NCBI RefSeq assembly: GCF_000236685.1
Contig: NC_016633.1
Span: 2,294,001-2,358,000 of the forward strand
Direction: 5' to 3'
Origin: Sphaerochaeta pleomorpha str. Grapes
Lineage (GTDB): Bacteria > Spirochaetota > Spirochaetia > Sphaerochaetales > Sphaerochaetaceae
DNA: 64,000 bases
In this document: positions 3,554 to 35,749 of the stretch, one piece after another
How positions within the stretch are numbered: position 1 is the first letter of the stretch
Layout of the letters: each line of letters begins with the position of its first letter
Program-made: the position numbers and the translations under genes
The notes under the pieces: generated by a model
Databases searched by the model: none
What the model was told of the DNA's origin: nothing
The model's input: the letters and a program-made list of their open reading frames with translations, nothing else

Positions 3554-4041
3554 AAAGGGAAATGATGATGCAAGATGGTGCATTGCTTCTTTCTCAGGTC
3601 TCTTCCCTGACTGGGAGCTGGGAGGGCAGTATCGAGAGAAGGTACTGCCATCTTAGCAATGTTTCGGCACTGCTAAAAGACTATTTTCCAAATACCAATT
3701 GGACAGGTTTCTATATCCGCGAAAAGGATAGCGACCATTTGGTCCTGGGTCCGTTCCAGGGGAAAGTTGCTTGTACCGATATAGACTTCAAGCGGGGAGT
3801 GTGTGGCAAAGCCGCTAGTACTGGACAAAGTCAACTGGTAGCTGATGTGCATTGCTTTGAGGGGCATATTGCCTGCGATGGGGCTTCGCGCAGTGAATTG
3901 GTTGTTCCTATCTTTGCCTCTGATGGTCAGGTTGTTGCTGTGATTGACCTGGATAGTCCTTCTGTTGGCCGGTTTTCCAAGGAAGACCAGCTTGTCGTGG
4001 AGCGCATAGCAAGTTTGCTTTCCAAAAGACTTTGGGCTTGA
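3550..4041 (+). CDS. msrC: Free methionine-(R)-sulfoxide reductase (GAF-domain fRMsr)
   Basis: A 163-residue single GAF-domain protein with the fRMsr signatures NWTGFY, LGPFQGKVAC, GVCGKAA and DVHCFEGHIACD. Cys75, Cys85 and Cys109 have the same mutual spacing as the catalytic and resolving Cys84, Cys94 and Cys118 of the E. coli enzyme. The enzyme reduces free methionine-(R)-sulfoxide with thioredoxin. It starts inside the stop codon of the hydrogenase gene (ATGA overlap) with a GGAAAAG site before it; Met codons a few residues later (3562-3568) are possible alternative starts. Its place at the end of the hydrogenase genes suggests a role in repair of oxidative damage in an oxygen-sensitive metabolism, which is an inference. 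Confidence 0.93.
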   Translation: MKREMMMQDGALLLSQVSSLTGSWEGSIERRYCHLSNVSALLKDYFPNTNWTGFYIREKDSDHLVLGPFQGKVACTDIDFKRGVCGKAASTGQSQLVADVHCFEGHIACDGASRSELVVPIFASDGQVVAVIDLDSPSVGRFSKEDQLVVERIASLLSKRLWA

Positions 4042-4066
4042 CTAAATTACGTAATGTGCGCATTCT
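4038..4066 (+). promoter_or_regulatory. Possible promoter of the thrS T-box transcript
   Basis: TTGACT at 4038-4043 overlaps the msrC stop codon and is followed after 17 bases by CATTCT, a weak -10 match. A start near 4073 would place the first T-box helix directly at the 5' end of the RNA. The -35 element is good and the -10 element is poor, so this is a tentative call. Confidence 0.4.
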
Positions 4067-4069
4067 TAT

Positions 4070-4367
4070 GCATAAGGCGTTGAGAAAGACGAGTAAACGG
4101 AAGCGAGGCAACAGAGAGGATTCCCTTGGTTGAGAGGAATCTGGCAGGCGCCCTTTGAAAACCCCTTTTGAGCCGCATATCGAACGGGCAACCCAGTAGG
4201 TTATGCCGCATACCTGGCGATATAGGTACATGAAGCGTCTTCTCCGGCGAATAAGAGTCGGAAAGGAAGCAAGGTGGAACCGCGGAAACATGAGAACCTT
4301 CATGCTTTCGTCCTTGCCGTACTACGGAACATGCCGTAGCGGAGGGCGATGGCATGAAGGTTTTTTT
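4070..4367 (+). promoter_or_regulatory. T-box riboswitch (tRNA-Thr sensing) with transcription terminator
   Basis: The leader has the hallmark T-box core AAGGTGGAACCGCGG at 4271-4285. Stem I features are also present: GAGTAA (4091-4096), the AGAGAG bulge (4113-4118), and a distal hairpin with arms GATTCC (4119-4124) and GGAATC (4136-4141) around a GGTTG loop. A candidate Thr specifier ACC lies at 4161-4163, after GAAA. The terminator is formed by CCTTCATGC (4297-4305) and GCATGAAGG (4352-4360), then seven T (4361-4367). Uncharged tRNA-Thr should bind the specifier with its anticodon and the TGGA of the T-box core (4275-4278) with its 3' end, stabilising the antiterminator so that thrS is transcribed when threonine is short. 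The tRNA-Thr(GGU) gene at 35677-35749 has the matching anticodon and a U discriminator, as TGGA requires. Confidence 0.93.
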
Positions 4368-4411
4368 ATGCGACTGAGATCCACTGGTAAAAATGTGGAA
4401 AGGAGATAGAA

Positions 4412-9528: not shown

Positions 9529-11072
<1,544 letters not shown>

Positions 11073-11205
11073 CAAAGAAAGGCAGGTCCGAGGCCCTCAC
11101 AGCCGCGGACCGCAATCCAAGGCCGTTGGCCAGCAGGTGAGAGTCCTGCAAACAAATTCCCTAATGTTTCCTAATCTCTTCTCTTCTCTGATATTTCTGT
11201 CAATC

Positions 11206-11279
11206 GGGACTGTAGCTCAGGTGGTTAGAGCGCGTGCCTGATAAGCACGAGGTCATAAGTTCAAGTCTTATCAGTCCCA
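11206..11279 (+). tRNA. tRNA-Ile (GAT) in the 16S-23S spacer
   Basis: A 74-base cloverleaf: acceptor arms GGGACTG and CAGTCCC, D arm with TAGCTCAG, anticodon stem CGTGC/GCACG around loop CTGATAA (anticodon GAT), T arm with TTCAAGT, discriminator A. The 3' CCA is not encoded. Confidence 0.96.
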
Positions 11280-11367
11280 ATTCAGTTGCAATGGCAACTG
11301 GTTTTTTTACAGTGTACAAGCTAGCAATAGTAAGTCGATATAAGCGTAGGGATTGGAAGAATGATAT

Positions 11368-14309
<2,942 letters not shown>

Positions 14310-14385
14310 ATCATCGTTCCAGTCCCCCGCGGGACCGCCAAGGCCGGTCGCCCGAGCTCCATGCTCAGGCTACCAGGCGTTGGCC

Positions 14386-14502
14386 GGCCCGGTGGCCATA
14401 GCAGAGTGGATATACCCGTTCCCATCCCGAACACGGAAGTCAAGCACTCTCACGCCGATGGTACTACGGTTCGTCCGTGGGAGAGTAGGTAGCCGCCGGG
14501 CC
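14386..14502 (+). rRNA. rrf: 5S ribosomal RNA, copy 1
   Basis: 117 bases with terminal helix GGCCCGGTGGC/GCCGCCGGGCC and the conserved core CCCATCCCGAACACGGAAGT. A hairpin (about 14342-14374) precedes it and recurs before the other two 5S genes, so it is probably a processing signal. Confidence 0.97.
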
Positions 14503-14550
14503 TTTTCTTTGCCCTTTTGCCCCCTGTGGGGTGAGGTTCATATATTGCAG

Positions 14551-14576
14551 GAGCGCACTTCGGTGCGCTTTTGTTG
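14551..14576 (+). terminator. Terminator of the first rRNA operon
   Basis: AGCGCAC, loop TTCG, GTGCGCT and then TTTTG. The identical hairpin with the same flanking bases ends the second operon at 21237-21258. Confidence 0.85.
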
Positions 14577-14628
14577 TTTCTGGGTAGTTTAAAAAAAGGT
14601 TGGAAAAAAGTCGGTATTGATTTTTACT

Positions 14629-14802
14629 TCACGATTTTTTTGTCTCAACCGACAACGTCTTCAGTTCACCCCAGGTACGGAAACAGTCCAAGAATTCAAT
14701 TCCAAGGGCCTTCTTATGTTTTGAAGGGTTCGGCAGTAAACGTCGAACTATGGTTTCATAGGCCTTTGCAAGGTTCTCTCGGATGCAGGTCGCAGAGTAT
14801 TT
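14629..14802 (-). pseudogene. Possible coding remnant (C-terminal piece of an unknown protein)
   Basis: On the minus strand an open frame of 57 codons ends at a TGA (14629-14631). Its translation looks protein-like (hydrophilic, with AKAYETIVRRLLPNPSKHKK and GIEFLDCFRTWGELKTLS), but it has no start codon and is closed upstream by a stop at 14803-14805. It may be the degraded end of a gene lost between the rRNA operons. I do not recognise the family. It could also be chance. Confidence 0.3.
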
Positions 14803-15730
14803 TCAATCTAAGCTGAACTGCATGTTTGGAAATGAAGCACACAAAAAAATGCACCCCTATCTGATTCCCTGCTTAGTTGGGGAAAATATATACGATAACA
14901 TCGTTTCTGAAAAAAGTTCTTAGTTTAAATTTAAATCTGGTATGAAACAAATATATGAACACGAACCTCCTGATACGTATAGGTGTCAGGGGGGAATACT
15001 GTATGATCCCTGTTATATTTGAGTTTTTCTCGTAGTGAAAGGCTTCTGTATTTCCATGGGACTTATTGCTATTCCTGCGACCATCAAGTATGTACATATT
15101 CTTGCTTTTGTTGCACAGAAAGAAAGCAATTCAAAACCGGATCTTGCTGCATTGCAGATGACCTGGAAGGAAACAAAGATATTAGCGACGAAAACGTATT
15201 ACTGCAATAATGTCTGACATTTTACAAGCCTTTAAGCCATTCTGGTTGTAAACCTGAAACCGTATTCTTTTTTAGATGCAAGAGAGAGAAAATTCCATAG
15301 CCTTTATAAAGCAGGCAAAAGGAAATTTCGATAGTCTGGTAACTAGGTGAAGACTCACTCAGTGGTTTTTCCCGAATTCCACTATATATATGCGGTAATG
15401 TTGCAGATGGATTGGATAGAGCTTCTTTTATCGATGTCTGTCCTTATGCTATCTGCGAATATCGAGGGTTTCAGCTTACTGATTTCCTGTATTGCTGTCT
15501 GCAAACTTTTCAAGCATAGATATTCATCTTCATGCAATCAGGGGTGTAGCCGATACTATTGGGGTAATGTGGAGGTTTGTTCCTTCTTTAAGGCTGAGTA
15601 GGTGGGAAAAGTAAAAATACGTGATTATTTTCACGAACCCTGTGGACAATAGTGAGCATGCCGTATATAGTGCCTTCTTGTGCGGTAGACGGAACGGTTG
15701 GAACACGGAAAAGAAAAAGCCTGGGAAGGC
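14803..15730. other. Region between the rRNA operons without an intact gene
   Basis: About 930 bases that are richer in A+T than the flanking rRNA. ORFs of 60-84 codons exist (for example 15035-15217 and 15347-15601 on the plus strand), but they have no good ribosome binding site and no recognisable product. Nothing here was recognised as a mobile element: I saw no terminal inverted repeats or transposase motif. Together with the fragment at 14629-14802 it looks like decayed spacer. Confidence 0.5.
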
Positions 15731-15760
15731 TTGACTGGGAAGTGAAAAATCTGGTATGTT
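15731..15760 (+). promoter_or_regulatory. Promoter of the second rRNA operon
   Basis: TTGACT (15731-15736), 18-base spacer, TATGTT (15755-15760). The spacing and the -10 hexamer are identical to those of the first rRNA promoter. The 238-base leader that follows has no ORF, and its last 110 bases or so match the first leader. Confidence 0.75.
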
Positions 15761-15998
15761 AACCGAGCGCCTCAGCGATGGGGCACAGCAAGAGGCACCG
15801 GTAAAGCCGGGCATGCTAACGATTTATGAAACAACGAGCGAAGGGAAGGAAACGAAGATAGAAGCGGAAGCACCACAAGTGGGCTTCCCAGTCAATTCGA
15901 AATGATGAACAGTAGATGAAAGAAGCTACGTTCGTTTGCGAGAAAAGACAGGGCAGACTATCGAAGTAATAGCTGCGGGGCTTCGGCCCCGTATTCCT

Positions 15999-17542
<1,544 letters not shown>

Positions 17543-17692
17543 CAAAGAAAGGCAGGTCCGAGGCCCTCACAGCCGCGGACCGCAATCCAAGGCCGTTGGC
17601 CAGCAGGCGAAAATCCTGCGAACAAGACGCCCATTTGGGTGCGCATGCCGAAATCTTCGAATCCTTCCCTCCCTCTTTTGTCCAAGTGCGTC

Positions 17693-17766
17693 GGGGGCAT
17701 AGCTCAGCTGGCTAGAGCATCGGCTTTGCAAGCCGAGGGTCAGGGGTTCGAATCCCCTTGCCTCCA
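17693..17766 (+). tRNA. tRNA-Ala (TGC) in the 16S-23S spacer
   Basis: A 74-base cloverleaf: acceptor arms GGGGGCA and TGCCTCC (one G-T pair), D arm TAGCTCAG, anticodon stem CGGCT/AGCCG around loop TTGCA-containing TTTGCAA (anticodon TGC), T loop TTCGAAT, discriminator A. CCA is not encoded. It replaces the tRNA-Ile of the first operon. Confidence 0.96.
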
Positions 17767-17821
17767 GAGAGTTTTACAGCGATTATTGACAGTTTGAGCG
17801 TAGGGATTGGAAGAATGATAT

Positions 17822-20763
<2,942 letters not shown>

Positions 20764-20839
20764 ATCATCGTTCCAGTCCCCCGCGGGACCGCCAAGGCCG
20801 GTCGCCCGAGCTCCATGCTCAGGCTACCAGGCGTTGGCC

Positions 20840-20956
20840 GGCCCGGTGGCCATAGCAGAGTGGATATACCCGTTCCCATCCCGAACACGGAAGTCAAGCA
20901 CTCTCACGCCGATGGTACTACGGTTCGTCCGTGGGAGAGTAGGTAGCCGCCGGGCC
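20840..20956 (+). rRNA. rrf: 5S ribosomal RNA, copy 2
   Basis: 117 bases, apparently identical to copy 1. It is followed by TTTTCTTT and then a GC-rich imperfect hairpin (about 20974-20996), and a third 5S gene 114 bases further on. Confidence 0.97.
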
Positions 20957-21070
20957 TTTTCTTTGCCCTTTTGCCGGGCGCGTTTGCGCCCCCGGCATAT
21001 GTCCCTTGTCCCTTTCGGACCGCCAAGGCCGGTCGCCCGAGCCCCCCGCTCAGGCTACCAGGCGTTGGCC

Positions 21071-21187
21071 GGCCCGGTGGCCATAGCAGAGTGGTTATAC
21101 CCGTTCCCATCCCGAACACGGAAGTCAAGCACTCTCACGCCGATGGTACTGCGGTTCGCCCGTGGGAGAGTAGGTAGCCGCCGGGCC
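21071..21187 (+). rRNA. rrf: 5S ribosomal RNA, copy 3 (extra copy in operon 2)
   Basis: 117 bases with the same ends as the other 5S genes. Differences are GTGGTTATAC for GTGGATATAC, and GCGG-TTCG-CCC for ACGG-TTCG-TCC in one hairpin. All lie where 5S rRNA tolerates change, so the gene should be functional. Confidence 0.95.
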
Positions 21188-35676: not shown

Positions 35677-35749
35677 GCCCTTGTAGCTCAGTCGGTAGAG
35701 CACCACCATGGTAAGGTGGGGGTCAACGGTTCAAATCCGTTCGAGGGCT
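35677..35749 (+). tRNA. tRNA-Thr (GGT)
   Basis: A 73-base cloverleaf: acceptor arms GCCCTTG and CGAGGGC, anticodon stem CCACC/GGTGG around ATGGTAA (anticodon GGT, read as GGU, decoding ACC), T loop TTCAAAT, discriminator T. CCA is not encoded. The anticodon and U discriminator match the specifier and T-box core of the thrS leader at 4070-4367. Confidence 0.97.

Follow-up and report, generated by a model that had tools for sequence, protein, structure and literature searches.

A canonical T-box riboswitch of thrS in Sphaerochaeta pleomorpha, probably old in the class Spirochaetia

T-boxes are usually regarded as a Gram-positive device, and a leader with all parts of a T-box in front of thrS in Sphaerochaeta pleomorpha raises the question of how a spirochaete came by it. 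The stretch that we analyzed, hereafter the window, comprises 64,000 nucleotides of this genome (NC_016633.1, positions 2,294,001 to 2,358,000). A first-pass annotation, made from its letters alone, had described a complete thrS T-box in a probable spirochaete and had offered two explanations: lateral transfer of the regulated gene from a clostridial source, or a wider natural range of T-boxes. T-boxes have been reported in Firmicutes, Actinobacteria, Chloroflexi, Deinococcus, and a few Proteobacteria, and the same survey of 2008 counted zero among six spirochaete genomes (PMC2494555). The openly accessible papers that we searched yielded no report of T-boxes in Spirochaetota, and as far as this literature shows the element is new to the phylum.

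Scanning with the Rfam T-box model RF00230 (cmscan), as the first-pass annotation had suggested, returned a match over the full length of the model (1-219 of 219) with an E-value of 1.8e-19, but the score of 86.8 bits lies 6 bits under the gathering score of 93 bits, a curators' convention, so that Rfam at its default settings shows no T-box in the window. A score under this threshold could also be expected of a decayed T-box that has become unresponsive to tRNA; we consider such decay highly improbable, as all functional elements are intact and conserved in the genus with compensatory changes, and as orthologues at the same locus in the genus reach 96.5 and 93.4 bits and thus exceed the gathering score. 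The leader folds with a minimum free energy of −113.7 kcal/mol (z −4.95; 0 of 100 shuffles equally stable), and in an alignment of 19 leaders of the genus 24 of 65 predicted pairs have changed on both sides with retention of pairing. Taken together, E-value, fold, and compensatory changes exclude a chance match. Within the genome of 3,590,853 bases, this T-box is the sole one detected.

Stem I with its motifs, the ACC specifier, the core, and the terminator, which the earlier reading had listed, are all found (Table 1). The core and CGUCCUUGC are invariant across the genus alignment, and the terminator helix is kept in the genus with compensatory changes. Two helices of six pairs each make up the antiterminator: A1 joins 4269-4274 to 4312-4317, A2 joins 4282-4287 to 4306-4311. 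Antiterminator and terminator each require nucleotides 4306-4317 and are therefore mutually exclusive. The specifier is followed by a C, whereas a purine stands at this position in the Rfam consensus. Directly upstream of the leader, the TTGACT/CATTCT pair may serve as its promoter: It agrees with the consensus at 8 of 12 positions, which is under the threshold of the promoter scan, and TTGACT followed by CATTCT or CATGCT is found repeatedly in the genus. The downstream gene product matches TIGR00418 with 726 bits against a curated cut-off of 384 and is a short-form ThrS, which lacks the N-terminal TGS domain and contains only the Pfam domains tRNA_SAD, tRNA-synt_2b, and HGTP_anticodon. Its best named matches belong to Spirochaetia, which agrees, as far as tested, with a spirochaete as host.

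Table 1. Features of the thrS leader, thrS, and the cognate tRNA gene in coordinates of the window.
Feature	Position	Strand	Basis or remark
Promoter-like pair TTGACT / 17 nt / CATTCT	4038-4043 / 4061-4066	+	directly upstream of leader
T-box leader RNA of thrS	4071-4367	+	RF00230 match 4071-4318, terminator through 4367
Stem I	about 4076-4174	+	RF00230 alignment; consensus fold, with compensatory changes, of 19 leaders of the genus
Stem I motif AGUA	4092-4095	+	RF00230 alignment
Stem I motif AGAGAG	4113-4118	+	RF00230 alignment
Specifier codon ACC (Thr) in GAA-A-ACC-C	4161-4163	+	RF00230 alignment
Antiterminator	4269-4317	+	pairs read from sequence
T-box core AAGGUGGAACCGCGG	4271-4285	+	sequence
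T-box bulge UGGA, complementary to tRNA 3′ end U73-CCA	4275-4278	+	
Intrinsic terminator hairpin, 30 bp, −43.5 kcal/mol	4295-4362	+	
Terminator U-run, seven U	4361-4367	+	sequence
Shine-Dalgarno AAGGAG	4400-4405	+	downstream of terminator
thrS, threonine--tRNA ligase, 582 aa	4412-6160	+	
tRNA-Thr(GGU)	35677-35749	+	ARAGORN and Rfam

The leader thus unites a full-length model match, a Stem I whose specifier fits the gene, a UGGNACC bulge between A1 and A2 whose N fits the discriminator, and an antiterminator in competition with a terminator. T-boxes act by a transcriptional mechanism or belong to a translational class that is found mostly in Actinobacteria (PMC7583486). The translational ileS T-boxes of Actinobacteria, which we used for comparison only with regard to the terminator-less UGGU relatives discussed below, differ from the leader in the window: A translational T-box has no terminator and hides its Shine-Dalgarno sequence when off, whereas here the terminator is strong and the Shine-Dalgarno sequence is predicted to be free in both states (98% unpaired in the off state). 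By analogy with what is established for other T-boxes, the leader would bind the tRNA, sense its charging, and control readthrough as follows. The ACC specifier of Stem I would read the GGU anticodon of tRNA-Thr. In an uncharged tRNA, the UCCA end would be free to pair with the UGGA bulge and hold the antiterminator, and RNA polymerase would continue into thrS. If the tRNA is charged with threonine, the antiterminator would not be held, the terminator would form, and transcription would stop.

This arrangement closely resembles the transcriptional thrS T-box of Firmicutes (RF00230; for example Bacillus subtilis thrS), with which it shares Stem I, the ACC specifier, UGGA, the antiterminator/terminator pair, and the target gene. 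It differs in its spirochaete host, in a ThrS without TGS domain, and in being the only T-box of its genome; moreover, it is single, whereas thrS of Bacillota often carries tandem T-boxes (PMC12452182). In the Hydrogenispora class of Bacillota we observed cores about 490-810 nt before thrS (L356-L375), far beyond the usual distance.

The assignment of the specifier can be assessed by comparison: Of 83 spirochaete thrS T-boxes, 80 have a loop of the form GAA-N-ACC-[A/C]-C, with slight variation permitted in the first triplet and N being A, C, G, or T, and ACC is also visible in the remaining three (83/83 in total). The constancy of this triplet beside a variable preceding base is good evidence for ACC as the specifier. 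The tRNA-Thr(GGU) encoded in the window fits both ends of the leader, as the first-pass annotation had noticed: Its anticodon (35710-35712) matches ACC, and its discriminator U73 (T at 35749; CCA is not encoded) pairs with UGGA. The presence of the cognate tRNA in the same window, to which that annotation had drawn attention, nevertheless reflects no special linkage but ordinary gene order, since the gene lies 31 kb from thrS, adjoins tRNA-Trp, and recurs in this arrangement in most relatives read. Between the two loci, at 9529-21186, are two tandem rRNA operons whose spacer tRNAs differ: The first operon contains tRNA-Ile, the second tRNA-Ala, and two 5S genes follow the second.

Of the two explanations offered, the wider natural range is borne out by the distribution of T-boxes among spirochaetes. 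Of the 26 genomes in the genus, 24 contain an RF00230 match; one of the two others, G004, is an incomplete assembly that is also without a ThrS match. Across the phylum, 72 of 393 sampled genomes and 41 of 168 genera have a T-box, counts that are lower bounds because the strict filters drop weak matches. All but one of the 72 genomes belong to the class of the window, in 62 the T-box precedes thrS, and only 25 exceed the Rfam cut-off, which makes spirochaete T-boxes easy to overlook. The sole match outside the class (L091 in genome G055) is about 190 nt long with a much shortened Stem I. Other amino acids appear to be represented as well: Four T-boxes of family f9 (L025, L027, L028, L029), whose specifier seems to be that of Tyr (TAC-A), precede a sodium/solute symporter and a tyrosine phenol-lyase/tryptophanase-like gene. 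Those of family f1 (L033, L073, L089, L093) seem to specify Ile (ATC-A) or Val (GTC-G) and lie, two per genome in two genomes, upstream of a gene that fuses helix-turn-helix, cupin, and acyl-CoA synthetase parts.

The first explanation, a recent joint transfer of thrS and its T-box from a clostridium to Sphaerochaeta-like bacteria, can be judged by the phylogeny of ThrS. In a tree of 101 proteins (IQ-TREE, LG+C20 PMSF, no outgroup), all 59 sampled Spirochaetia ThrS form one clade, with or without a T-box (SH-aLRT 99), while those of Clostridia and the Hydrogenispora class are placed elsewhere. Constraining the family of the window to group with Clostridia worsens the log-likelihood by 186.6 units (AU p 4.3e-10), and a transfer of thrS from Clostridia is rejected by this tree and test. 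In a coarser FastTree run the spirochaete ThrS had fallen into two groups, likewise away from Clostridia and near Chloroflexota; the two, one of which is on a long branch, were joined only under the better model. The thrS T-boxes of Clostridia do carry an identical UGGA bulge, but the ThrS proteins of Clostridia are full-length with 46-60% identity (mostly below 51%), whereas spirochaete ThrS is of the short form, and T-box-bearing ThrS is distributed over at least 14 spirochaete families. We thus regard a recent clostridial transfer as extremely improbable; a literature search on gene transfer between Sphaerochaeta and clostridia produced nothing useful. The ThrS clade, the AU test, and the T-box distribution instead argue for a wider range with old vertical inheritance, and thrS and its T-box appear to have been passed on together across many spirochaete families. 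A vertically inherited ThrS and T-boxes common in the phylum, the outcome that the first-pass annotation had named as speaking against transfer, are largely what was found. Its description of the locus, comprising a complete thrS T-box, the specifier/tRNA match, and the wider range, stands without the clostridial part. Overall, we hold it to be very probable that the leader is a canonical transcription-attenuating thrS T-box that is old in the class Spirochaetia, where ThrS has descended vertically.

How the class obtained this T-box is a separate matter. It was probably already present in the ancestor of Spirochaetia; since several lineages within the clade are without it (among those sampled, most of family f3 and all of f5), its history must comprise either several losses or both gains and losses, the counts of which are not separated by the ThrS tree alone. 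An older transfer of T-box and short-form ThrS into this ancestor, from a Chloroflexota-like or unsampled lineage, is conceivable, although we give it somewhat less than even chances. ThrS differs in some other classes of the phylum (f38, f46), and the nearest named non-spirochaete ThrS is that of an Anaerolineae genome (Chloroflexota): It is 64% identical and, as in the window, of the short form and preceded at about 100 nt by a T-box with UGGA. In locus L107, an example of these Anaerolineae thrS T-boxes, the core reads GGTGGAACCACG, unlike that of the window, and such genomes hold 4-6 T-boxes. Against this older transfer, the direction is unfixed in a tree without outgroup, and the ThrS of Lentisphaerae and Elusimicrobiota, which also lie near the spirochaete proteins, are without a T-box. 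T-box cores were further seen 145-198 nt upstream of thrS in L130 (Paceibacterota) and L142 (Wolfebacteria); these T-boxes, in genomes labelled Patescibacteria, may be real or may stem from misbinned contigs.

The bulge of the window conforms to the T-box database paper, according to which bulge base and discriminator usually pair (PMC7778990), and UGGA was found in every thrS T-box that we read from Bacillota and Chloroflexota. Among spirochaetes the tRNA side is fixed, with U73 in tRNA-Thr(GGU) of 54 of 54 genomes tested, and the bulge is not: Among 47 T-boxes, 17 have UGGA (pairing), 4 have UGGG (wobble), 25 have UGGU, and 1 has UGGC. As UGGU opposes U73 with a U-U mismatch, bulge and discriminator do not match in many relatives, and the covariation between them that we sought across spirochaetes as proof of function was not found. 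As an explanation of the mismatch, a second tRNA-Thr with A73 was rejected in one complete UGGU genome: The tRNA set read there comprises 46 distinct genes with a single tRNA-Thr(GGU), and its three tRNA-Thr all have U73. UGGU or UGGC despite U73 was observed in families f8 (L037, L043, L052, L078, L081, L083), f4 (L066, L085, L092, L095-L097), and f18 (L045, L057); in many of these loci a clear terminator is missing and the start site bears GGAGGTAC or GGAGTACC.

These relatives suggest that in a part of Spirochaetia, outside the genus of the window, the thrS T-box, its terminator being weak or absent, might be translational, with the bulge base N set by pairing with the Shine-Dalgarno sequence and not by the tRNA. 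A clear terminator is missing in 19 of 31 UGGU T-boxes as opposed to 5 of 52 others (Fisher, raw p 8.5e-7), and GUAC, complementary to the core GGUACC, occurs in or beside the Shine-Dalgarno sequence (GGAGGUAC or GGAGUACC) in 19 of 31 versus 0 of 52 (raw p 5.5e-11). Such a start site is not simply the usual one in those genomes, as GGAGGTAC-ATG accounts for only 0.7-3.7% of GGAGG-N4-8-ATG sites in eight relatives. The independent contrasts number only 4-5, of which 2-3 agree, with none opposing for GUAC, and are not significant; constrained folding predicts an opening of the Shine-Dalgarno sequence in few loci only (L037, L043, L077, L085), and the duplex energies between core and Shine-Dalgarno sequence are not unusual against a GC-rich background. 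For these reasons the translational variant is a lead only, and we judge it rather unlikely.

For the canonical thrS T-box of the window, the broader meaning lies in its setting: T-boxes that are widespread in Spirochaetia, bound to one gene, and vertically inherited bear on the age of T-box control. Furthermore, with tRNA and specifier fixed while bulge base and expression platform vary, the spirochaete leaders form a natural series in which the rule of bulge/discriminator matching becomes testable.
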